Shown in pieces: positions 17,989-42,328 of a stretch of DNA of 45,726 nucleotides; position 1 is the first letter of the stretch; every line of letters starts with the position of its first letter. The stretch lies in NCBI GenBank assembly GCA_002722845.1, contig PBND01000021.1:1-45726 (forward strand), read 5' to 3'. The translations under genes were made by a program, and so were the position numbers. The notes beneath the pieces were generated by a model, which was not told the DNA's origin, searched no databases, and saw only the letters and a program-made list of their open reading frames with translations. This DNA is from Myxococcales bacterium. Its GTDB lineage: Bacteria > Myxococcota > UBA4151.

Positions 17989-19110
17989 ATGGGCCTGACC
18001 TCATTGATCCTCGCCAGTTCTCTTGCTGCCCCTTTAAGGGATTGCGACACCGCTCCCTGCTACCCAACAGCCTACGTGGATCAAGGCAATCGGGACTGGG
18101 CCTGCCGAGGGCTCACTTTTGCAAACCACTCCGGATCCGATTTTGGCATCGGTGGGTTTGAGGAAATGGATCGAGGGCGTGCTGTTTATGCGGCCGCCGG
18201 TGGCCAAATCATCCAAGTGGAAGACGGTCACTTCGATCGCTGCGTCAGTGGTCAGTGCGAAGGTGGCGATGGCTACGGCAACCATATCATCATCGATCAT
18301 GGCGACGGCCGACAGAGCCTCTATGCCCATCTGCGAAATGGATCGGTGGTCGTGGAAGTCGGTGAGCCAGTGGACTGTGGCGCGGCCATCGGCCTGGTCG
18401 GTAGCTCAGGCTTTTCCACTGGGGCCCACCTTCATTTTGAGTGGCGGGTGGATGGAGCGTCCATCGACCCCTTCGCCGGCCCCTGTGGCGAGCCAAATAC
18501 CGCTTGGGTCGAACAAGGCCCTCACGGTGCCCTGCCCGCCCGTCTTTGTGCAGGCGAGGGGCCGGCTGCGGGAGAAGACAACAGCCGAATCCTTGAAGAA
18601 CCCGCGCCGGGGGAAATCGTCGCCGCTCGCGGCACCGAGGTCTCTTATTGTTGGCGCGTTGAAAATAGCGGCTCACGAACCTGGGAGCCAGAGATGGTCA
18701 ATGGGGTGCTCGTCAGTGGCGAGCGCCTGGGCCAGGCTGGAACCTTGGGCCTCTCAGAGACCGTCTTACCGGGCGCTTCGACTCAGGTTTGCGCTGAACT
18801 CACAATGGATGCGCCGGCCGGTGAGCGGAGCCGGGCGAGTTGGCGTCTGGCCCGGGCGGGCAGTGTCTTTGGCGCCATGCTGATCCTGCGCGTCGACGTG
18901 GTGGAACCAAGAGATGCCGGCCCAACCACTGCCGACGGAGGGTCCTTCCAGCCTGATCCGGATGGAGGTGTTCTGCCTCGACCCGATGGGGGCGATCATC
19001 CTGATCACCCGACGGGGTGCGGCTGTGTGGCCGCTAGCCCCCTCAACCTCTGGTTGCTCTTGCTCTTCTTTGTCGGCCGGCGGCCCTATCGAGCGGGGAC
19101 GCTGAACTGA
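17989..19110 (+). CDS. M23 (LytM-type) endopeptidase with NBR1-like domain and MYXO-CTERM tail
   Basis: The 373-residue secreted protein has a weak N-terminal signal (MGLTSLILASSLAAP) and a LytM/M23 metallopeptidase domain. Zinc ligands are H47 and D51 (HSGSD) and H149 in HLHFE, with H114 in YAHL and H147 as further active-site residues, so it should be an active peptidoglycan cross-bridge hydrolase. Residues about 200-300 resemble the Ig-like domain next to BRCA1 (VSYCWRVENSGSRTWEP, then SRASWRLARAGSVFG). A DGG/PDG-rich linker leads to GCGCVAAS, a hydrophobic helix and RR, a MYXO-CTERM-like signal. It is transcribed divergently from the elongasome operon, which fits a role in wall remodelling. 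Its 3' end overlaps the convergent gene by 25 bp. Confidence 0.85.
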   Translation: MGLTSLILASSLAAPLRDCDTAPCYPTAYVDQGNRDWACRGLTFANHSGSDFGIGGFEEMDRGRAVYAAAGGQIIQVEDGHFDRCVSGQCEGGDGYGNHIIIDHGDGRQSLYAHLRNGSVVVEVGEPVDCGAAIGLVGSSGFSTGAHLHFEWRVDGASIDPFAGPCGEPNTAWVEQGPHGALPARLCAGEGPAAGEDNSRILEEPAPGEIVAARGTEVSYCWRVENSGSRTWEPEMVNGVLVSGERLGQAGTLGLSETVLPGASTQVCAELTMDAPAGERSRASWRLARAGSVFGAMLILRVDVVEPRDAGPTTADGGSFQPDPDGGVLPRPDGGDHPDHPTGCGCVAASPLNLWLLLLFFVGRRPYRAGTLN

Positions 19111-20147
19111 GCCATGATTCCCCCATCGGCGGGGGAGATCAATTGCACCTCGATGACCTGCTGGCCGCGCCGTGTGAGAATCGTACCGGTCAACACCGCA
19201 TCGGTCTTCTTCGCCATGCGCTTCTTTCGCCCGTCACTCATGTCGGCAAACTTTTTGATCGGTTGTTTTTTGGCGACCGTGCAACCCGCAGCGCCGGATT
19301 TGAGTTGGTCGATCACCTGCTTGGCAGCCTTTCGGCCGTCGAGGCCGCTGGCGCCCCGACTGGTGAACTCAGCCACCGAGATCCGCAAGGGCCCTGGGCG
19401 TACAGGCTGTCCCTTTTTCGCGCCACCAAAGGTGTCGCCCAGGTGGGTATAACTGCCCTTCGAACTGCTGGCTTTGACCTCGTACACTTCGATCTCGCCG
19501 ACGGCGTCACCGCCCTTCATCACCTGGAGTTTGCTCCCCTCACCAATGCCGTGGCCTCGCCCTAAGGAGACCGTGATCTCACCAGCGATATGGGCCGTGA
19601 TGCGCCCCCGGACACTGTTTCGTGGAGCACAGGCATGGCGATTCAATTGATGGAAAAGCCGAACGCCAAACTTTGGATCAAGCTCTACGGCTGCTTTGGC
19701 ATCGCCACTGAGTTTTCCCGCCAGACCTTCGAGGAGTTCCTCAAGTAAATCCGGGTTACTCCAGCTCACCCGCTCGGCATGAACGGTGGCAGCCGTATCC
19801 ACATCGACCAGGCGAACATTCAAAATGCGCTTCGAGCCCAACCGCCCAACACTACCAACGAGAAAATAAGCCGCGTGGGCGTAGGCAGCGAGGTCGATAA
19901 AATCGTCATCGCTGGCCGTCACCATCTGCAACTGCTTCTCTTCCATCATTTGGGCCATATGGTTCCGGTCGAGGACTTTATATTTGCCCTTCTGGCTCAG
20001 CATCGTGCCCAACGTGTCGCCGATCTCGTCACCATCCCCTTGGGTGAGACCACCGCCCACCTTGAGGGGCATCAAAGCCAAGGTCTCCTGCTCGGCCATC
20101 GCTGGGCCGGCCACGAGAAGACTCGCAGCAATCGTCAGACGGAACAT
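19086..20147 (-). CDS. Periplasmic CsgG/FlgT-like protein (last gene of ring-module cluster)
   Basis: The 353-residue protein has a cleavable signal (SLLVAGPAMA before E20). The N-terminal half resembles the CsgG/FlgO fold: an initial LALMPLKVGGG strand, DEIGDTLGTMLSQKGKYKVLDRNHM, and then YFLVGSVGRLGSKRILNVRLVDVDTA. Residues about 180-236 resemble the FlgT C-terminal domain (GEITVSLGRGHGIGEGSKLQVMKGG). In Vibrio, FlgT, FlgO and FlgP build the outer-membrane ring around the flagellum; CsgG is the curli secretion pore. Here no flagellar or curli gene is close. It follows a lipoprotein gene with a TGATG overlap and ends tail-to-tail with the M23 gene. Fold-level resemblance only; precise function unknown. 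Confidence 0.7.
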   Translation of the reverse strand: MFRLTIAASLLVAGPAMAEQETLALMPLKVGGGLTQGDGDEIGDTLGTMLSQKGKYKVLDRNHMAQMMEEKQLQMVTASDDDFIDLAAYAHAAYFLVGSVGRLGSKRILNVRLVDVDTAATVHAERVSWSNPDLLEELLEGLAGKLSGDAKAAVELDPKFGVRLFHQLNRHACAPRNSVRGRITAHIAGEITVSLGRGHGIGEGSKLQVMKGGDAVGEIEVYEVKASSSKGSYTHLGDTFGGAKKGQPVRPGPLRISVAEFTSRGASGLDGRKAAKQVIDQLKSGAAGCTVAKKQPIKKFADMSDGRKKRMAKKTDAVLTGTILTRRGQQVIEVQLISPADGGIMAQFSVPAR

Positions 20148-21010
20148 CAGTTCTCCTTCTTTGCCTCTGGCGGCTTATCGGACTCCGGAGGCGTCTTTTT
20201 ATTCGGCGCCTTTGGGCCAATATCGGTTGGTTTCGACCGGCGCTTGATCAAGGGCCGCTTGGCTTTGCCTTTTTGCTCACTGGATTTGGAGGCATTCCCT
20301 GGGGAATCCTTGCTGGTCTTCGGTCCAGGGTTCGGGGGCGCTGACTTGGCATTCGCGGCCTCTGGCTCATCCCTCACGGCGGGCCCGACTGCGGGCTCGG
20401 AAGCCCCTAACTCCAGATCGGGTTCTCCATCCTCTTTGTCCTCTTTGGACTCCGCGGCCAAGAGATCACCTTTCGCCTCGATGACGTGGGTTAGGGGCAG
20501 CGCCTGGCGCATCTCGTCGGGAACCTGAGCCCACTTCAGTTGCATCCAGTCCGGCGCCCTTGGGGTAAAAACCGTGCCGTCCCCCATCCGGCCAGGGAGG
20601 GCCTCTAGGACGGAATCGAGCCGCTCGTCCCCATGCAGCGCCCTACGAATCACCTTGTCCACATCTTCCCATCGTAACTGGACCCGGCTGAAGTGGCTGC
20701 CGTCGGCCGGGTCCACCCAGCGGTCGCTCACCGATGCGACCAGGGCGACCTGAACATAGAGTTCCTTCGCTAGATCCGGCCCCAATGGCGTCAGGGCAGG
20801 GGCCAGCCAGGCGTCGAGTGCACCAGCGAGTTGGGAGGCGGCCATCATATCAGCCCCAGCGATGCCTTCCGCTGCGGGGGCCTCACCGATCGCGACCACG
20901 CCCCGCTTCGCAATGGCCGTCTCCCCGCTCACCCAATCCGGGGCGGGAGCCGGCAAGTAGGCACAAGCGATGCCAAGAAAACCGCCAAGACCGAGGGTTA
21001 GCCATCGCAT
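20147..21010 (-). CDS. Lipoprotein with degenerate LPP20-like domain and Lys/Pro-rich tail
   Basis: The start is set at the ATG at 21010, because a perfect AAGGAGGT lies nine bases upstream; the in-frame GTG at 21016 would leave only three. The 287-residue product has a lipobox (FLGIAC, C16). PDWVSGETAIAKRGVVAIGEAP followed by a helix resembles the beginning of LPP20 domains, but the match is weak. From about residue 185 the chain turns into a low-complexity tail of Lys, Pro, Glu and Ser ending KKEN, probably disordered and perhaps binding peptidoglycan or DNA-like polyanions; that is a guess. It is coupled to the CsgG/FlgT-like gene by TGATG. Confidence 0.65.
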   Translation of the reverse strand: MRWLTLGLGGFLGIACAYLPAPAPDWVSGETAIAKRGVVAIGEAPAAEGIAGADMMAASQLAGALDAWLAPALTPLGPDLAKELYVQVALVASVSDRWVDPADGSHFSRVQLRWEDVDKVIRRALHGDERLDSVLEALPGRMGDGTVFTPRAPDWMQLKWAQVPDEMRQALPLTHVIEAKGDLLAAESKEDKEDGEPDLELGASEPAVGPAVRDEPEAANAKSAPPNPGPKTSKDSPGNASKSSEQKGKAKRPLIKRRSKPTDIGPKAPNKKTPPESDKPPEAKKEN

Positions 21011-21071
21011 CAGCACGACACCTCCTTGCCCAGAGCCTAGCCCAGGGGGCCACCGCTGCCCAGGAAAGGGG

Positions 21072-21527
21072 TCACGGTTTCGGATAAGAATAGAGAAAGT
21101 AGTAAACTCGCCCCTCTTTGCCGGACCATCTTCCGTGGGGGTCGATCCACTCCGCCTCCTGCTTCATTCCCTCGAGCACCGACTTAAAGAGTCGGCTGCT
21201 TTCACTCCGATCGACAGCAAAGTGCCGCTGAATGCCCTCCTTCGATGTCTGATCGGAGCGGGTCACACGGGTGGAGATATCGACGCCAGCGACAGACACG
21301 GTCCCCAGCATGCTCGCCAGGTCACGGGCAGCCCGGTCCTGAGCGATTTTGCGGGCATCGCCCGGCATGCCGGTCGGACCGCCATAGCCCACCACCCAGA
21401 GTCGACTCTCGTCCTGAACGGGCGGCTCACCCGTGGCTTTCCACTGACTCAGCCACGGTGGCGGCTCCGGAACAGGTGGCGTGTGAGCACAGGCCAAAAA
21501 GAGAAGGGATGCGGTGAAACACCGCAT
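21072..21527 (-). CDS. Small LPP20-like lipoprotein
   Basis: The ATG at 21527 gives a lipoprotein signal (MRCFTASLLFLAC, C13) and 151 residues. A longer in-frame start at 21587 lies inside the preceding gene and would place 20 non-signal residues in front, so it is disfavoured. The body has the LPP20 pattern: PPPWLSQW, then LWVVGYGGPTGMPGDARKIAQDRAARDLASMLG, a Gly-rich beta-strand followed by a helix with repeated Ala. The start codon lies inside a perfect 11-bp hairpin (21506-21530) followed by a U-rich run, so expression is likely to be controlled at translation or by attenuation. Confidence 0.7.
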   Translation of the reverse strand: MRCFTASLLFLACAHTPPVPEPPPWLSQWKATGEPPVQDESRLWVVGYGGPTGMPGDARKIAQDRAARDLASMLGTVSVAGVDISTRVTRSDQTSKEGIQRHFAVDRSESSRLFKSVLEGMKQEAEWIDPHGRWSGKEGRVYYFLYSYPKP

Positions 21528-21530
21528 CCC
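21506..21530 (-). promoter_or_regulatory. Hairpin enclosing a start codon, followed by a U-rich tract
   Basis: On the minus strand GGGATGCGGTG, loop TTT and CACCGCATCCC form a perfect 11-bp stem, followed by TTCTCTTTTT. The ATG of the small LPP20-like gene (21527-21525) is inside the 5' arm, and the G-rich part of its ribosome site borders the arm. It could terminate readthrough from the upstream LPP20 gene, sequester the start, or both. Confidence 0.6.
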
Positions 21531-21564
21531 CCTCTTTAGCAGAATCCAACTCAAGGGAACGCTC

Positions 21565-22113
21565 TTAGTTCCCACGAGCCTTTTCAAGTTCCGAATTCAG
21601 GTCATCGAAGTTGCTCTCGGCCCGGGCTCGGATTTGGGCTGCAGCCCGCTTATCCAGGTCGTTCATCTTCTCCAGGTTGTCGCCGAAGGCGTCCAGATTC
21701 AGATAGGCCAGCGAGTAGAGCGTGCCATCTTTGTCTTCCCAGTGATTGATGATGTTCACGCCCACCAACTTCACATCCACCAAACTCTTGGTGATGTCGG
21801 CCGTATAGGCTTCGACGTTTTCTGCCTCGGTATCGGTCACGCTCTCGCGGGAGCTCTTGTAGAGGTTGGTCACGTGCTTACCGAAGATGGCAGCCATCTC
21901 CTTGAAGGCCTCATTATGGGACTGAGTCCGCCGCATGATCTTATCTTTGGAGGTGCCGATCCCGACGGCATAAAATCCCTTGCCGTTGGGTGCATCATAG
22001 GCACCACCCCCACGATGGACCCAGGCGGGGGTTCCGCTGGTGGCCGGTGTGGAGGCACAAGCCATGATCATACCGGCCGCAGCCATAACGGTAAGTGTCT
22101 TCGCAATTCGCAT
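21565..22113 (-). CDS. LPP20/FlgP-family lipoprotein
   Basis: This 182-residue lipoprotein (lipobox MIMAC, C19) is the clearest LPP20-type member of the cluster. TPAWVHRGG and GKGFYAVGIGTSKDKIMRRTQSHNEAFKEMA give the expected Trp-containing entry, Gly-rich strand and Ala-rich helix; it then has VKLVGVNIINHWEDKDGTLYSLAYLNLD and a charged helical end. FlgP, a member of this family, forms a multimeric outer-membrane ring around flagella. The upstream 134-bp gap holds an exact CRP-type palindrome (22197-22212), and AAAGGA precedes the ATG, so this gene may head its own transcript. Confidence 0.83.
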   Translation of the reverse strand: MRIAKTLTVMAAAGMIMACASTPATSGTPAWVHRGGGAYDAPNGKGFYAVGIGTSKDKIMRRTQSHNEAFKEMAAIFGKHVTNLYKSSRESVTDTEAENVEAYTADITKSLVDVKLVGVNIINHWEDKDGTLYSLAYLNLDAFGDNLEKMNDLDKRAAAQIRARAESNFDDLNSELEKARGN

Positions 22114-22194
22114 GTCGTCTTCCTTTCAATAGCCCGACGGGCTGGTCAAAGTTGGGGCTGAGACGAATATCCCCTGTTCCTATTCAATCCATCC

Positions 22195-22214
22195 ACTGTG
22201 ACGTGGTTCACAGT
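22195..22214. promoter_or_regulatory. CRP-type operator: TGTGA-N6-TCACA
   Basis: ACTGTGA, six bases CGTGGT and TCACAGT form a perfect 7-bp inverted repeat whose core (22197-22212) is identical to the E. coli CRP consensus TGTGA-N6-TCACA. It is centred about 91 bp upstream of the LPP20 lipoprotein start on the minus strand, in a non-coding gap. Binding by a CRP/FNR-family protein is inference. Confidence 0.6.
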
Positions 22215-22247
22215 CTTCCTAATGCCTCCATGACAGGCCGACAACCC

Positions 22248-23768
22248 TCAGCGAGAGAGCGCCTGACGCAAGGCCTTCACCAAGCGCTTCCCCACACGCT
22301 TCTCGGCCTGTTCCGTGGCCGAGTCATCGTCGGTTTGCGTCCCCCGCCCGCTTGCGTCGAGTTGGGCCCGCTGGGCTCCCTGCTTGCGTACCGTCAACTG
22401 GGCCCTCACTTTACAGGTCCTGCGCATGCTCAGGTCCTTACAGGTCGCCTCGCCGATGGATAATTCGAGTTCCCAAGCCGCACTTGAATCATCGACCAGG
22501 TCCATACCCAGCTTCTTGGAGAGTCCTTCACGCAGAGCACTCGGCGGCTCACTGCCGGAAAGGCGAACTCGAATCGGCTGCAGATTCAAGGTCATCTGTA
22601 GTCGCAGCCGCGCCACCACACCGGGATGCTTCAGCCGCAACCAACTGTTCTCCCCCTGATCCACGCCCGCAAGCGTTGCCATATCGACGGCGACAACAAC
22701 CTTCGGACGGCGGCCCCAGATTCGCCAGTCTTTCACATGGGCCGTCCCAGCACGGGTCGTGACCAAGTGACTGGGCGACCGGGGCCCCATACGAAGTTTA
22801 AAGCGAACCGGCACGCCGTCCACCGGGCCACCATCGCTGGTGACCTCCGCACTGATCGTCAGCGCCGTTCCCACGGGAGCGGAACCCGGATCCGCCGCAG
22901 ACAACTGGAGGCCTGCTCCAGCTCGAGCGACGAGGTCATTGACCAGGGCCTCTGCCGGCCGGCCCGCGATCTGGAAGGGCACACCGAAGAGATTTCGCAG
23001 GGCGAGGCTGGCCCGCAGACCATGCCCCAAGGCTTTCACCGAATCCCCAGCGGCCAAAGCTTTCTCCGCAGCCTGGACCTGATCGAGCACCACGTCTTGG
23101 AGGGCTGCAAGTTGAGCGGCGATCTTCGCCTCCAGCTCCGCTTTATTGAAACGGCCCAGCACATAGGCATTTTGCTCGTCACTGTACTGATCATGAATCT
23201 CAGCACCCTCTAAGGAGGCATCCACGTGGGCCCGAATGGCCTCATCATAGTTACTTGCGAGGTTTTCACCGGCCTGATCGGTGTAGCTGCTGCGGAAGCT
23301 GTCCGCGACAGACTCCACATGGACCTTCAATTGGGAGCCGATGGCCGCGAAAGCTCGATCGCGAGCCTGGATCCGAGCCTCACCTTCATCGCTCTCGATA
23401 TTGGCCATGCCCATGCCATAGATATAGGTCCCATCAGCGGCCGGCACCTGCATGATCCAGGCAGGCTTCCCCCTTGGCTTTGCAGGTTCTGCAGCCGGCG
23501 CTGGGTCCGGCTTGGTACGGATCGGCGCGGGTGCTGCGGCCTCTTTACGGGGACGAAGCGTCGTCAAATTCGGGGGGTTTTCTTCGATATCCCGAACCCG
23601 CTCCTCTTTCGTCTTCATCTTTCGGCGCTTCTCGAGGTCGAGAAAATTGGCACCCGCCCGGGCCTTGATTCGGTCCCGCTTGGCCTTTGAGAGTCGTTTC
23701 GGCCCTGTTTTCGGCGGTGGCGTGCTCACACAGCCCGCCATCGCCAACAGCAACAATCCCCGTTTCAT
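22248..23768 (-). CDS. Multidomain LPP20-type lipoprotein
   Basis: The 506-residue lipoprotein (LAMAGC lipobox, C13) has a basic helical linker up to about residue 95. An LPP20-like domain at about 100-216 follows (KPAWIMQVPAADGTYIYGMGMANI, then EARIQARDRAFAAIGSQL), then a helical segment (QVQAAEKALAAGDSVKALGHGL). An Ig-like domain lies at about 295-360 (VGTALTISAEVTSDGG), and a C-terminal alpha/beta domain containing MRRTCKVRAQLTVRKQG completes it. GAGGAG precedes the ATG by eight bases. A G/C hairpin lies between it and the upstream 611-residue gene. The LPP20 part suggests ring formation and the Ig part a partner contact; both are inference. Confidence 0.75.
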   Translation of the reverse strand: MKRGLLLLAMAGCVSTPPPKTGPKRLSKAKRDRIKARAGANFLDLEKRRKMKTKEERVRDIEENPPNLTTLRPRKEAAAPAPIRTKPDPAPAAEPAKPRGKPAWIMQVPAADGTYIYGMGMANIESDEGEARIQARDRAFAAIGSQLKVHVESVADSFRSSYTDQAGENLASNYDEAIRAHVDASLEGAEIHDQYSDEQNAYVLGRFNKAELEAKIAAQLAALQDVVLDQVQAAEKALAAGDSVKALGHGLRASLALRNLFGVPFQIAGRPAEALVNDLVARAGAGLQLSAADPGSAPVGTALTISAEVTSDGGPVDGVPVRFKLRMGPRSPSHLVTTRAGTAHVKDWRIWGRRPKVVVAVDMATLAGVDQGENSWLRLKHPGVVARLRLQMTLNLQPIRVRLSGSEPPSALREGLSKKLGMDLVDDSSAAWELELSIGEATCKDLSMRRTCKVRAQLTVRKQGAQRAQLDASGRGTQTDDDSATEQAEKRVGKRLVKALRQALSR

Positions 23769-29166: not shown

Positions 29167-32100
29167 CTAGTAGTTCTTCGTGAACAACTCCACGTCCAGC
29201 GTCCATGAACGACGGTTGGCCTGGCTCAGATCACCATAGGTCCAACTCTCGAAATCGAAGTCTGGAATGTAGATGGCCTGCAATGCCCACAGATAGGCCC
29301 CCGGACCGGGCACCGGCGGCTGTTCCGGATTGCCAGTGATCGGCACATGGGGAAGGCGGAACTTCCGCTGATCACCGGGGACGACGAAGTCCCAGCGATG
29401 ATTGGTGACAAGGTTGATGATGATCACCTGATAGACCGTAGGTCGAACACCGGTTTCGGCGGGCTTCCAGCGAAAGTACCCACCCTCGAGCAGCCCATTG
29501 TTCACCGGCGAGGTGATTTCGGGGAACTGGAGAATGGGATCCAAGGTCACGCCAGAGTCGAGACGACCGACACCTTGCTTGAGGGTGACCGAGTAAGGAT
29601 AGCTGTAGATGAACTCACCAGCACAGGCATTGCCTTGCATGGTGGGAACACAGCTCTGCCCAGGCTCGCATTGCGCCGCCGACTCACAGGATGGTCCTGT
29701 GACGTTGTCCGGTTCCCATCGACGGGTAAACGAGCCGCCATAGAAGGTCATGAACTCACCGGGGAATGAGGGCAGTTCTTCCTGCACGATGATGTTGCTG
29801 TCACTGTCGGTATCACCCAGAGGATAGACACCCTCGCCACCAAAATCGATATAGGTCGTGACCCGCTTTTTATTGGGACCCAACTTACCTTCTAGCTGAC
29901 CCGGCGCATCGGGTAGACTGATATTGACGCTCTGCTCGAGGGGGTACTCGAGGTGAATATCGAGGCCGCTATGGATTTCACCGAGCACTGCGGTCACGCC
30001 GCGGCGAACACCTAACTGCCGCAGCTCCACGATCTCTTCCGTGCGGCTGTTGTAGATGCCGGCCCAGGCCAAAAGGGCGTAGCGACCGGGCATGGTGATA
30101 AAGTCGAAGGTTGCATGGTCAGCGAAGACCATGTCGTTGCCCTGGATCACGATGCAGTTGCCCGTGCCTCCCTGACAGGGCTGACCGCCTTCATCCACCG
30201 GAACTTCCCAAATGGTGGCCTTCGGAGTGGGGCTTGAGAATGCATTGCGTTGGGTCAACTGAATCTGGGCAAACGGCACTTCGTCAGGGCCCAAGGTGGC
30301 CGGGTCGAATACGGCCTTTGAAAAGCCACTCACCGTCCCCTGGAGGCGGGGATACAAGGCCGGGGGACGACCACCACCGCCACCGCCGGGCGATGGGGGC
30401 GCCGAGCAGTAGAGGATCAAGGTCACATCGGCGCCTTCAGACTCCACGACCGTGGCACTCGTGCACATGTTCTGCATCGCAGTCACCGTCTGAGGACCAT
30501 GGATATCGGGCCCACTCAGCGTGACTTGGCCGATGGCGTTTGTGTAGCCGAAGTATGGCGTATCCGATTCAAGCCCCAGATAGACCAGCGCCCCCGCTTG
30601 GGGAATCATTTGGCCCATCAGCACCCCGTACACGGTGACGTTGACGGATCCCTCCACATCACCACCATGGGAGCCGCCATTGATGAACGCAGGGTCGAAA
30701 TAGGTGAACGCCATCGGCAACACTTGGGATTCACCCCCAACGCTGATGGTCACATCCACGGTTCCCGGCAGGTTGGGCGGCGTGCGCAGGCTGACCGTAT
30801 TGTCATTGATCACTCGGACGTCGCTGGCAGCCCCCTGACCGACTTGAACGTTCACGGGACCTGCGCTGAAACCGGTCCCCGTCAACACGACATAGGTCCC
30901 ACCGGCCTGCGCCCCGCGATTGGGATGGAGTCCGTTGAGTCGTAATGGAGCCTCATAGGTGAATGCATTGGCCAAGCGGGCCCGCTCTAGCCCCCGCTCA
31001 ACCCGCAACTCCACGGGACCGCCTGCGCCTGGAGGCGTGGTGAAGATGAGGGCATTGCCATCCTGGGTGATCCCTTCGAGCTCCTGGCCTCCGAGCCATG
31101 CTCGCAGCCCCTCACCAAATCCAACACCCTCAACACGGACTTCGGTACCGCCCTCGACGGGCCCCCGACGGGGGTTGAGATTATGGACCGCTAGGGGTGT
31201 TACATACTGAAAGGCACCGGCGCGCTCGGCAAAGCCGGCCGCCGTCTCCACCCGCAGGTCAACAGTTCCTTCGCTACCCTGCGGGGTCGTCACGAGAAGG
31301 CGGTCGCCATCGACCACCAAGTCGGTGGCCTCAACACCACCGAGGAGGACTCGCTGGGGGTCGTCGGTCACCCCGCTGCCGTAGATCGCGAGGCGGGTGC
31401 CGCCCTGAACGGGGCCCCGATCCGGCGCCGACCCGTGGATGGCGAGTGCATCACCAGCGGCTGTGTAGACGAAGGCTGCGGGCCGCTCATAGGCTCCTGT
31501 CGCATCGGTGGCAGTGACCGCGACCGGTCCAACTTCGGCACCGGCCGGCACCGTGCATTCCAAGCGACCGGCATCGATGACCTGCAGATCACCACATTCA
31601 TTGGCGCCAACCTGCACGGTCACCCCGTCGTGAAATCCTTCACCGAGAATTGTGACCGTATAGCCACCGGCAAGATCACCACCACTGGGCTGAGCTTCGT
31701 TCACTCGGAGCGGGGCGTAGTAACGGAAGGCCAGGGGCAGCACCTTGCGTCCGAAGGCGTTGATCACCTCCACGTCAACTTCACCGGGGCTCGCGGCCGG
31801 CGGCACGATACCGGTCATTTCGTTGGCATCGATTCGCTGGATCCCGCGCACCGCTGCGCCACCGATGAGCACCGCTGTCTCATCGCTAAACCCATCGCCA
31901 AGAAGACGGACTTCACTGCCGCCAAGGTAGCTCCCCGAGCCCGGCTCTACGGAGTGAAGCTCAAGAGGGTCGTAATAGGTAAATGCGCCCTCGACCGTCG
32001 CACTGCCGAGACTGTTTTGCACCACGATATCCGCTGGACCTGGGGTCCCCGGCGGGGTGCGGAAGGTGATAATTCGCTCGTTGGTCAGCAGCATATCTAA

Positions 32101-32388
32101 GCCCTGCTCGCCACCGACGAGGACGATGCTATCCGGTGCGAAGCCCGTGCCGCGGACTCGGACTCGCGTCCCCCCCATGGCCGAACCAGACACCGGCGAG
32201 ACCTCTTGAATTTGCACCGGGCCGGGACCGGCATCCTCTGGTGTGGCCGGACCCGCATCTGGGATGAGTACGGAACCCGCATCCTCCACAGGGATCTCAA
32301 CCCCAGCATCTGTGCCCCCTGGGCCCGAATCCGGGCACGCGGCGAGCAGTGCGATTAAAGGAAGAAAAGAAAGGCTGCGTGCCGACAT
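29167..32388 (-). CDS. IPT/TIG-repeat surface lipoprotein
   Basis: The ATG at 32388 is chosen: GGAGGG lies five bases upstream and it starts a lipoprotein signal (SLSFLPLIALLAAC); the frame is open to 32562, but those residues are not signal-like. The 1073-residue product has a DAG-rich linker and then six consecutive IPT/TIG Ig-like domains of about 85 residues, each with a GG(T/S)xVxxxGxGF-like core and a xPPGxxGxVxVxV-like strand. After them come a carboxypeptidase-regulatory-like beta domain, a Gly-rich hinge (PGGGGGGRP) and a long beta-rich C-terminal region containing a Cys motif (CESAAQCEPGQSC). It is probably an adhesin or matrix-contact protein; ligand unknown. Confidence 0.82.
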   Translation of the reverse strand: MSARSLSFLPLIALLAACPDSGPGGTDAGVEIPVEDAGSVLIPDAGPATPEDAGPGPVQIQEVSPVSGSAMGGTRVRVRGTGFAPDSIVLVGGEQGLDMLLTNERIITFRTPPGTPGPADIVVQNSLGSATVEGAFTYYDPLELHSVEPGSGSYLGGSEVRLLGDGFSDETAVLIGGAAVRGIQRIDANEMTGIVPPAASPGEVDVEVINAFGRKVLPLAFRYYAPLRVNEAQPSGGDLAGGYTVTILGEGFHDGVTVQVGANECGDLQVIDAGRLECTVPAGAEVGPVAVTATDATGAYERPAAFVYTAAGDALAIHGSAPDRGPVQGGTRLAIYGSGVTDDPQRVLLGGVEATDLVVDGDRLLVTTPQGSEGTVDLRVETAAGFAERAGAFQYVTPLAVHNLNPRRGPVEGGTEVRVEGVGFGEGLRAWLGGQELEGITQDGNALIFTTPPGAGGPVELRVERGLERARLANAFTYEAPLRLNGLHPNRGAQAGGTYVVLTGTGFSAGPVNVQVGQGAASDVRVINDNTVSLRTPPNLPGTVDVTISVGGESQVLPMAFTYFDPAFINGGSHGGDVEGSVNVTVYGVLMGQMIPQAGALVYLGLESDTPYFGYTNAIGQVTLSGPDIHGPQTVTAMQNMCTSATVVESEGADVTLILYCSAPPSPGGGGGGRPPALYPRLQGTVSGFSKAVFDPATLGPDEVPFAQIQLTQRNAFSSPTPKATIWEVPVDEGGQPCQGGTGNCIVIQGNDMVFADHATFDFITMPGRYALLAWAGIYNSRTEEIVELRQLGVRRGVTAVLGEIHSGLDIHLEYPLEQSVNISLPDAPGQLEGKLGPNKKRVTTYIDFGGEGVYPLGDTDSDSNIIVQEELPSFPGEFMTFYGGSFTRRWEPDNVTGPSCESAAQCEPGQSCVPTMQGNACAGEFIYSYPYSVTLKQGVGRLDSGVTLDPILQFPEITSPVNNGLLEGGYFRWKPAETGVRPTVYQVIIINLVTNHRWDFVVPGDQRKFRLPHVPITGNPEQPPVPGPGAYLWALQAIYIPDFDFESWTYGDLSQANRRSWTLDVELFTKNY

Positions 32389-32401
32389 CGGCCCTCCGCG
32401 C

Positions 32402-32457
32402 CCGCTCGCGAGCGGAACTAATGGCTGTGGGAGCAACCTAGCACCTCCGTGAGGTGC
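32402..32457. other. Two inverted repeats in the divergent TIG/dapD gap
   Basis: CCGCTCGCGAGCGG (32402-32415) is a perfect 14-bp palindrome 14 bp ahead of the TIG gene start. GCACCTC-CGT-GAGGTGC (32441-32457) is a 7-bp hairpin. Both lie in a 134-bp divergent intergenic region that must contain promoters for both directions. They are operator or leader-structure candidates. Confidence 0.45.
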
Positions 32458-32522
32458 CGGCAAAGGCCCTCCGCTTGGCAATGGTCCGGCGACGGGGCAA
32501 GGGGAAGAACAGGAGCCAATCG

Positions 32523-33335
32523 ATGCATGAAAAATGGATTCGAGAAGCCCTCGCCGATCCAAGCCTTGTGGACGGCGAAGGCCCCCACCGAAACGCGGTC
32601 CTAGACACCCTCGCCGAACTGGACGCAGGTCGACTCCGAGTGGCCAGCGATGACACCGGCGAATGGGTCGTGAACGACTGGGTTCAGGGGGCGATCAATC
32701 TCTACTTTCGCGTCGCGCCCATGGCTCGAATCGAGGCTGGAGAGATGAGCTGGTTTGATAAGATCCCGCCCCGGACCGACCACGCCGATCGTGGCTTACG
32801 GGCCGTCCCCCTTTCCCTGGTTCGCTACGGTGCCTTCGTCGAGCCCGGGGCCGTTCTGATGCCTTGCCTGGTCAATATCGGTGCTCGGGTCGGTTCGGGA
32901 TCCATGATCGACACCTGGGCGACCGTGGGCTCCTGTGCTCAGGTGGGACGGGATGTTCATGTGGCCGGCGGGGTGGGCATCGGCGGGGTCCTTGAGCCCC
33001 CTGGGGCTCGTCCTGTGATCATCGAGGATGGCTGCTTTCTAGGCTCTAGATGCATCGTCGTGGAAGGGGTTCACGTGGGCAAGGAAGCGGTGATCGGCGC
33101 TGGTGTGGTTCTGACGGCCTCTACGCCCATCATCGACGTCCGTGGTCCCGAAGCCCAAACCTTGAAAGGCCATGTCCCCCCCCGAAGTGTCGTCATCCCC
33201 GGCATCAGGGAGCGGGACTTCCCCGCCGGCCGCTACGGTCTCCCCTGTGCCCTGATCGTTGGCGAGCGCAAGGCATCGACCGACCGAAAAACCAGCCTCA
33301 ATGCGGCCCTCCGGGACCATGACGTGGCCGTCTGA
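32523..33335 (+). CDS. dapD: 2,3,4,5-tetrahydropyridine-2,6-dicarboxylate N-succinyltransferase
   Basis: DapD succinylates tetrahydrodipicolinate in lysine/diaminopimelate synthesis. The 270-residue protein has the expected N-terminal helical domain and hexapeptide left-handed beta-helix (VNIGARVGSGSMIDTWATVGS, CAQVGRDVHVAGGVGIGGV), with FVEPGAVLMPC and VIPGIRERDFPAGRYGLPC typical of the family. ATG 32523 has AGGAG seven bases upstream and yields the family length (about 274); a longer frame from 32454 is rejected. It is coupled to dapE by TGATG. Confidence 0.95.
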   Translation: MHEKWIREALADPSLVDGEGPHRNAVLDTLAELDAGRLRVASDDTGEWVVNDWVQGAINLYFRVAPMARIEAGEMSWFDKIPPRTDHADRGLRAVPLSLVRYGAFVEPGAVLMPCLVNIGARVGSGSMIDTWATVGSCAQVGRDVHVAGGVGIGGVLEPPGARPVIIEDGCFLGSRCIVVEGVHVGKEAVIGAGVVLTASTPIIDVRGPEAQTLKGHVPPRSVVIPGIRERDFPAGRYGLPCALIVGERKASTDRKTSLNAALRDHDVAV

Positions 33336-39535: not shown

Positions 39536-42328
39536 CTAACCCTGCTCTGCGTTCTCAGTGATCCGGGCTAATGCAGCGAGGGCCACCGCCCGATCGCCGG
39601 GGGCGCCGGCGGCCTGAGCGGCCTCGAGGAGTTCCATCGCCCGTTGCGCCACATCATCATCCCGGCGGCGACGGTCGACCATCAGGCCGATGCGCTGGGC
39701 CTGGCGGCGCAAGCGCAAAAGCCCCCGTTCGCTGCAGTTTTTGAGCAAGGGTGCCAATAAGGCCCTGGCCTCATCACCTTCCTCCTCAGCGTCTTTGAGT
39801 TGAATCCAGAGCAACTGGAGTCGAAGCTGAAACAACTCGCTTTTGAGGCCTTCGGCCAGTCGAGCACCATTCTCAAGCATCCCATGCGCTTCTTCCACCC
39901 GACCGGCGGCCAACACCAAGGCAACGTGGTCGACCAGAACCTCGAGTCGAAGTGCGGAAGAGTTGGCCGCAGGTAGTTTTTTCTCCGCAGCCTCAAGAAT
40001 TTCCATGGCGAGGCTACTGGCCCCTTGGCGAAAGGCGAGCCGGGCGGTCAGCAAATCACGCTGAACCTGATGAACAGGCTGCAGATCAAACTCACCCATG
40101 CGCTCAAGACAACGGCCAGTCCGCCTGGTGAATCCAAGGGACTCCGCGGCCTCGGCTTGCGTCAGCCAGACAAAGGCTTGCAACTCCGGCGGCGTCTGCG
40201 GGCTCAGGGCATCTCCTGCTTCCCGAGCGACTTCGCTGGCCCCTTTGAGATCATCCTGCTCAAGTAGCAGTTGGGCCCGTAGGGCGAGGCGCTCAGGATG
40301 AGCTTCCGGAGCCCCCTCTAAGACCGCCAAAGCCTGCTTCACGTTGCCATCTTGCAGCCACAGACGCTCCGCTTGGAGCGAGACCTCAAGATCGCCACTC
40401 AGGGTTGGTTGCTGGATGGGCAGCCGATCAACGTCCAAGTTGGGCATCAGTTCTGGTGTTGGACTCTCGGCCGATGCCAACATCAGATGTCGGGCCAATT
40501 GGGACCGCAGCACGGGATGCCGGCCATCGACCCGCGACGCCAACCAGTCGGCGACCCGCTGGTGCAGGGTCTGCCGTAGGACCTGGGGGAGCATCTTTGC
40601 GGCCACCTCAGTCACCATCGTGTTGACGATCTGGTAGGCTTTGGTCTCAGGAAGACTCTTGTCTTGATAGCGCCTCAACCAGCCCTGCTCGATAAGGTAT
40701 TCAAGGGCGGCAGCCACCTCAACGGCATCGCCGATGGCAATACGCTCCGCAACGGGATGCCAAAAGACCCGACCCACCGCTGCACAGCGCTGCAGTAAAT
40801 ACCTGGGCGTCCGCGGGAGTTGGTCGATCCGGGCTTGGAGTAACTCCCGTAGTGAGCCTGGCAGGCTCGCCTCCAACTGCCGGCCCCCGTCTAACTCCCA
40901 TCGGCCCGACTCCGATCGCTGGATCACCCCCTCATGGCGCCAGGCATCAACCAACTCAACGAGGTGGGCTGGCGTTCCCCCGCTCATATCGGAAAGTTGG
41001 GCGAGCAGTTCATCGCTACACTGCCCCAGATTGACCTCGATCCAATCGAGAAAGCCATCGCCGGACAATGGCCCGAGCTCCAAGACCTGGCTCACCTCTA
41101 AATCGGTAATTCCAGCATCTTCAAAGCTCGGCGTCGGCAGGGACGACAGCAGAATAAAACCGGTACCAGATGTCTCTGCCCACATCTGGAGCCAGGCGAT
41201 CGAAGCGATATCAAGTTGGTGCGCCTCTTCGACGATGATGTTCCCGACGGCCATTCTTTTCGTCTCAAGGAGCGCCTTCCATGCTTCCAGTCCAGCGCTT
41301 TGGTCCATGGTCCCCACCGCGCCCGGTAGCCCATGAAGTCTGGCCAAGGGGTCGGCCAAATGGGCGTGCTCGCCCAACCAATAGGTCAGGCTAGCCGTGT
41401 CCGGTATCAGATGGACATCACCGCTAATTTCGGCGGCGAGCAACTGGACCGGTAAGGAGAGGGGAGCCGTCGCGATGATCGGATCCAAACGGAGGTGATG
41501 GTACGTATCACTCAACCCCTCACAAAACACTTCGAGTAAATGCCCGCGCCCAAAACCACGCTGCCCCTCCAAGATGACCACTTGGCGACGGGCCTTTCCC
41601 TCTTCGTAGAAGGCCTGGAGAGCGGCGAGTTCACGATCTCGACCGACGAGGCGCTCCCGGTCGCTGTGTCGTGACGACTCAAAGCGATCCCGAATCCCTA
41701 AGACGAGAAATGATGGCTCCGGTCGATCCCGACCCTTGAGTCGCAATTCTCCAACGGGGGCCAAATCGAAACGGCGGCTCACCTGCTTAGCGGTGGTTTC
41801 CCCCACCATGACCTGCCCGGCGCCAGCGGCACTTTCGAGGCGGGCGGCCACGTTGACGGTGTCCCCAATCACCGTAAACTCTGAAGCCCGGCCTAGGGGC
41901 CCAGCGATCACCTCACCGGTGTTGATGCCAACACGCATCTGCAAATCGAGGCCCATCTGCCCACCGATTTCGGCGACGACCGTATGAATCGCAAGACCAC
42001 ATAAGACCGCTCGCTCTGCGTCATCCCCACTGGCTTTGGGCACACCAAAGAGGGCCATGATGGCGTCACCGATGATCTTATCAACGCTCCCTCCATGGGA
42101 CTCCACCAACTTGCTTAAACGACCAAACAACTGGTTCATCAGTCGCTGAACAATCTCAGCGTCCATACCCTCGGCCATGTTGGTGAATGACTTCACGTCG
42201 GCGAAAAGGACGGTACACCAGCGGCGCTCGACCTGGGAGGAGGTCACCACACTCAGACCGCAATGGTGGCAGTAATTGGCCTCGGCCAAGAGGACTGTCT
42301 GGCAGTTCGTACAGACTCTTTCCGTCAT
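39536..42328 (-). CDS. Class III adenylate cyclase with STAND-like ATPase region
   Basis: The 930-residue protein has an N-terminal zinc ribbon (C6, C9, C20, C23) and a class III cyclase domain (about 36-210) with metal ligands D44 (LFADV) and D88 (IIGDAIMALFG), purine-selecting K84 and T152 as in ATP-specific enzymes, and transition-state N159/R163 (VNVAAR). It should make cAMP. A region like the AAA/STAND ATPases often fused to such cyclases follows, but the P-loop is GQRGFGRGH (255-263), lacking the Lys and Ser/Thr, and Walker B is IIVEEAH. The last 350 residues are TPR-like helices. GAAGGATC precedes the ATG. It heads the cyclase/membrane protein/HEAT lipoprotein unit. Confidence 0.9.
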   Translation of the reverse strand: MTERVCTNCQTVLLAEANYCHHCGLSVVTSSQVERRWCTVLFADVKSFTNMAEGMDAEIVQRLMNQLFGRLSKLVESHGGSVDKIIGDAIMALFGVPKASGDDAERAVLCGLAIHTVVAEIGGQMGLDLQMRVGINTGEVIAGPLGRASEFTVIGDTVNVAARLESAAGAGQVMVGETTAKQVSRRFDLAPVGELRLKGRDRPEPSFLVLGIRDRFESSRHSDRERLVGRDRELAALQAFYEEGKARRQVVILEGQRGFGRGHLLEVFCEGLSDTYHHLRLDPIIATAPLSLPVQLLAAEISGDVHLIPDTASLTYWLGEHAHLADPLARLHGLPGAVGTMDQSAGLEAWKALLETKRMAVGNIIVEEAHQLDIASIAWLQMWAETSGTGFILLSSLPTPSFEDAGITDLEVSQVLELGPLSGDGFLDWIEVNLGQCSDELLAQLSDMSGGTPAHLVELVDAWRHEGVIQRSESGRWELDGGRQLEASLPGSLRELLQARIDQLPRTPRYLLQRCAAVGRVFWHPVAERIAIGDAVEVAAALEYLIEQGWLRRYQDKSLPETKAYQIVNTMVTEVAAKMLPQVLRQTLHQRVADWLASRVDGRHPVLRSQLARHLMLASAESPTPELMPNLDVDRLPIQQPTLSGDLEVSLQAERLWLQDGNVKQALAVLEGAPEAHPERLALRAQLLLEQDDLKGASEVAREAGDALSPQTPPELQAFVWLTQAEAAESLGFTRRTGRCLERMGEFDLQPVHQVQRDLLTARLAFRQGASSLAMEILEAAEKKLPAANSSALRLEVLVDHVALVLAAGRVEEAHGMLENGARLAEGLKSELFQLRLQLLWIQLKDAEEEGDEARALLAPLLKNCSERGLLRLRRQAQRIGLMVDRRRRDDDVAQRAMELLEAAQAAGAPGDRAVALAALARITENAEQG

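Follow-up and report, generated by a model that had tools for sequence, protein, structure and literature searches.

A predicted operator of a CRP/GlxR-type regulator ahead of an LPP20-domain lipoprotein gene in a Myxococcales genome

The palindrome ACTGTGACGTGGTTCACAGT (ACTGTGA-N6-TCACAGT), at positions 22195-22214 of the window, is probably an operator of the single CRP/GlxR-type regulator encoded in the same genome, as judged from sequence comparison. The window is the whole stretch of DNA that was analysed (45,726 nucleotides); it forms contig C21 of an assembly of 2.68 Mb that is 70% complete (referred to as G000). What the analysis shows directly is the exact site, the regulator gene with its conserved recognition helix, and a motif that is enriched across the phylum and located mostly between genes. 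It is an ordinary type of control element in a little-studied genome. The features of the window are as follows.

19086-20147, minus strand: FlgO/CsgG-like gene at the end of the same-strand run (PF17680, E 1.8e-08; PF03783, E 3.4e-05), probably co-transcribed with the LPP20 gene
20147-21016, minus strand: next same-strand gene (open reading frame), no family found, probably co-transcribed
21072-21587, minus strand: gene (open reading frame) that overlaps the LPP20 gene at the 3' end of the latter, probably co-transcribed
21565-22113, minus strand: lipoprotein gene with an LPP20 domain, 182 aa, the first gene after the site and its proposed target (PF02169, E 3.2e-08)
22114-22247, minus strand: intergenic gap of 134 bp containing the site, flanked by two LPP20-domain genes (open reading frame map)
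22195-22214, no strand assigned: palindrome, proposed CRP-family binding site, with the sole exact core in the genome
22248-23768, minus strand: gene with an LPP20 domain, 506 aa, bordering the gap on its upstream side (PF02169, E 4.9e-07)
39536-42328, minus strand: class III nucleotide cyclase gene (PF00211, E 7e-33)

An earlier note on this DNA had described a CRP-type palindrome at 22195-22214, in a real gap about 90 bp before the LPP20 gene, and this description was confirmed. The letters and coordinates are exact, the core TGTGACGTGGTTCACA (TGTGA-N6-TCACA) occupies 22197-22212, and within the 134-bp gap the ATG of the LPP20 gene lies 81 bp from the edge of the site and about 91 bp from its centre. 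A scan of 22050-22400 gave no sigma-70-like promoter in the gap, although the sigma-70 consensus may be a poor description of promoters in this phylum. No terminator, scored as a GC-rich stem with a T-run, was found in the same interval. A reading as a known RNA was rejected after an Rfam search up to E 1 gave no match. Just outside the cluster, at 29167-32562 of the window, lies a gene for a 1131-aa protein that contains six TIG-domain stretches.

The window contains one exact core, whereas its dinucleotide shuffles had 0.02 copies on average, with at least one copy in 2 of 100 shuffles. Matches with up to two mismatches are at expectation (12 against 12.6), so that the exact copy alone is notable. 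The window site is also the only exact TGTGA-N6-TCACA in the whole 2.68-Mb genome; many random copies in coding DNA, an outcome that had been named as speaking against the reading, did not appear. Composition predicts 1.28 exact cores genome-wide and about 0.08 in the intergenic DNA of this genome, and the evidence is therefore the placement of the site and not the count. With up to one mismatch allowed, the motif was found in 23 places in the genome, compared to 12 for the mirror-read control. Six of these 23 exact or one-mismatch places are intergenic, against a background of 6.2% (p 0.002), where the background is the share of DNA between genes around the sites in this genome, called with a gene caller retrained on the window genes; when the window site is removed, 5 of 22 remain intergenic (p 0.01). 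The caller was retrained because the first gene caller left 35% of the genome intergenic, which is too much uncalled DNA. A perfect 7-bp stem within the 134-bp gap was matched by 3.45% of shuffles, making the palindrome in itself modestly unusual. The flanks and spacer of the site score 20.0, in the bottom quarter of the phylum set (lower quartile 20.6).

The genome contains 13 cNMP-binding domain matches and one match to the CRP-type DNA-binding domain HTH_Crp_2. The two domains are combined in one protein of 235 aa, encoded at 20942-21646 of contig C62, which is the one clear full-length CRP-type regulator in the genome. The earlier note had proposed a search for Crp/Fnr-family regulators, with the lack of any CRP-family protein as the adverse outcome, and this protein answers it. 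The regulator gene is divergent from a gene that appears from its sequence to encode a DnaK-like protein, and this arrangement (L055, 3915-6650) recurs in the nearest relative, G001 (L178). The PDB sequence relatives closest to the regulator include GlxR-type and Mycobacterium tuberculosis CRP-type regulators (3r6s, which we take to be GlxR, and the 3d0s/3h3u/3i54 group, which we take to be from M. tuberculosis). The GE...RSA core of the cyclic-nucleotide pocket is invariant in all seven aligned Myxococcota proteins. Two positions of the C-helix, which are presumably also pocket positions, are S-N in this genome, and the other six proteins have A-D or A-S there. The recognition helix has the sequence SSRETVSR, and the pattern RET(V/I)SR is present in 7/7 of the aligned proteins; in Escherichia coli CRP, the R-E...R residues read TGTGA. 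The consensus of GlxR is given as 5'-TGTGA-N6-TCACA-3' in the accessible part of one report (PMC7999487). The C62 protein thus has a sequence that fits the role of partner of the site, and it is its likely cognate regulator. The region upstream of the regulator gene itself, in both G000 and G001, had no site at up to two mismatches.

Across 195 Myxococcota genomes, the exact motif was found 505 times and the mirror-read control 68 times, an approximately sevenfold enrichment, with a maximum of 26 exact copies in a single genome (G024 and G029). Motif density was 0.48/Mb in the 56 genomes where the regulator has a strong ortholog, 0.50/Mb in the 49 with a medium match, and 0.17/Mb in the 90 with a weak match or none, while the control stayed at 0.04-0.07/Mb across the classes. 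The class limits were chosen after the E-values had been seen, and one genome in which the ortholog is split over two contigs (G058) was placed in the strong class by hand. The difference in density between the strong and the weak or absent class has a Mann-Whitney p of 6e-5, uncorrected for relatedness between genomes. Exact sites were also examined for position, taking 30 listed sites of the 505 in the phylum and the 5 exact sites of the family members G001 and G002. Outside called genes were 28 of these 35 sites, compared to 26% of control positions (p 4e-11); both figures come from the first gene caller, and two of the sites (L114 and L115) are near-identical and not independent. In many Myxococcota, TGTGA-N6-TCACA thus appears to serve as a functional regulatory word.

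In the family of this genome, G001 has three exact sites and G002 has two, and all five were called intergenic, although in G002 the control pattern (3) outnumbers the motif (2). Exact sites stand just before homologous genes in both genomes (L116 in G001, L119 in G002), which appear LysM-type from their translations; no full-length relative of this gene was found in G000. A further exact site in G002 (L117) lies about 200 bp before a gene whose translation appears flagellin-like, which suggests CRP control of motility in the family.

Conservation of the site upstream of orthologous LPP20 genes, which had been proposed as a check, was not found, so that one of the adverse outcomes named in the earlier note, a motif missing from orthologous loci, did arise. 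In G001, the LPP20 protein is 53% identical, the gene order around it matches, and the place that the overlapping gene (21072-21587) has in the window is taken there by a frame of 154 aa after LPP20. The gap in G001 is 61 bp, and the 250 bp before its LPP20 gene had no site at up to two mismatches; a single two-mismatch match was present on the whole 5.4-kb contig. In all, 49 regions upstream of LPP20 genes were scanned, including that of G000, of which 29 had start codons set by rule and 20 were scanned for 500 bp before the start of the match. Excluded were LPP20 matches in frames far longer than a single LPP20, those cut by contig ends (G034 and G044 among them), and weak matches late in the list. 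The exact core was present in 2 of the 49 regions (the window and G037), a one-mismatch site in none, and 47 of the 48 regions other than the window had no site at zero or one mismatch. In G037, which belongs to another family, the exact site lies 248 bp before the ATG of the LPP20 homolog, where it shares bases with the stop codon of what may be a short frame. It heads a series of genes for LPP20, trypsin-like, and LpoB proteins. The chance of one such site among 28 regions is about 0.02, an order-of-magnitude figure worked out manually from the density in the phylum and the intergenic share. The comparison consists of one near relative and distant homologs because only one close relative was found. 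Many genuine CRP sites are not conserved, so the lack of conservation makes the claim weaker without ruling it out.

The earlier note had also pointed to an adenylate cyclase in the window as a link to the site. The gene is real, its catalytic region aligns with adenylate cyclases, and the claim that it carries residues expected for cAMP production is reasonable. Class III cyclase domains number 10 in the genome, this one included, and the gene lies about 17 kb from the palindrome, so its presence in the window is uninformative on the site. The link was discarded as evidence because of this number and of the 13 cNMP-binding matches. The two counts indicate, as an observation apart, a rich cyclic-nucleotide system for an assembly of 2.68 Mb at 70% completeness.

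Other explanations of the palindrome were weighed against the operator, chief among them chance and an RNA hairpin. The core may have arisen by chance, one copy being predicted by composition and happening to fall in a gap; the genome-wide count (1 against 1.28 expected) and the missing site in G001 agree with this. The 0.08 copies expected in intergenic DNA, and the apparent use of the motif as a functional word at the phylum level, speak against it, and a chance origin is considered unlikely. It is very improbable that the palindrome is instead the operator of some other regulator whose dyad is similar, for example a further cNMP-binding or HTH protein, or a protein whose gene falls in the 30% of the genome absent from the assembly. 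The assembly is indeed 70% complete, G002 has exact sites and no strong ortholog among its 59% complete contigs, and G024, with 26 sites, is absent among the genomes listed with a regulator match. Motif density is nevertheless higher where the CRP ortholog is present, and the recognition helix of the C62 protein suits the GlxR type.

The palindrome could also matter as RNA, forming a hairpin between genes of one transcript that acts in mRNA stabilisation, processing, or partial termination, with the stem and not a protein site being what counts. The gap in G001 has a different inverted repeat, 8 bp with a 6-base loop (L056, 4268-4289), which was matched by 0.25% of shuffles and has a fold z of -2.5. 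Of 28 LPP20 homologs, 6 are preceded by a perfect stem of 7 bp or more (1.4 expected) and 4 by one of 8 bp or more (0.36 expected), the stem sequences being mutually unrelated. The excess of stems and the G001 repeat mean that an intergenic stem is a real feature of some such loci. The stem in the window is, however, weak (-8.7 kcal/mol, z -0.67), with neither a terminator-like T-run nor an Rfam match, and a free RNA stem would not account for arms that spell the exact CRP core, for which the operator reading alone accounts. A hairpin in place of a protein site is thus judged rather improbable, and the two could be mutually compatible. The CRP-type reading of the earlier note therefore stands as the best supported one, given the regulator, the phylum-wide enrichment, and the intergenic position; its expectations of conservation and of a cyclase link do not, and the cAMP-CRP-type control of the ring genes that it put forward is a hypothesis.

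The site resembles those of CRP/CAP and GlxR in its exact core, its 16-bp dyad with a 6-bp spacer, and its intergenic position upstream of a gene, and a regulator of the same family is encoded in the genome, as in those systems. The known regulators have targets in carbon metabolism, while the window site precedes an LPP20-type lipoprotein gene in a cluster, for which the promoter and ligand are predicted ones. The same palindrome is used outside Enterobacteria by CgrA of Rhodospirillum centenum, a CRP homolog footprinted on TGTGA-N6-TCACA according to the part of the report available (PMC4681086). That system belongs to another phylum with other targets, and its binding was footprinted, whereas the window site is known from sequence. 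Within the phylum of the C62 regulator, MrpC of Myxococcus xanthus is a CRP-like regulator described, in the available text of its report, as having no known ligand and binding without one (PMC8844925). In the available text of the literature searched (Myxococcus CRP sites, Myxococcus cAMP, and Myxococcales CRP regulons), the sites of MrpC were the only CRP-type sites in Myxococcota found described. The search on CRP regulons in Myxococcales gave nothing relevant, and a search for LPP20 with Myxococcota gave no papers.

If the palindrome is an operator, a dimer of the regulator would bind both TGTGA half-sites, centred about 91 bp before the ATG, perhaps with cAMP as its ligand. The bound regulator would most likely act on a promoter within the 134-bp gap, and may activate rather than repress. 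Through such a promoter, the LPP20 gene and the three next genes could be turned on or off independently of the genes further upstream in the cluster. A wider proposal, put forward as doubtful, is that a GlxR-like CRP regulator, widespread in Myxococcota, has put LPP20-type outer-membrane lipoprotein operons under cyclic-nucleotide control. In the family of this genome, it would also control wall genes of the LysM type as well as a flagellin gene, and the link to LPP20 would have been recruited separately in the families of G000 and G037. The operator, if correctly predicted, would give a handle on the timing of LPP20-type envelope protein production in an uncultivated lineage. The enrichment of the motif, and its density together with the GlxR-like CRP, would permit regulon prediction in Myxococcota.
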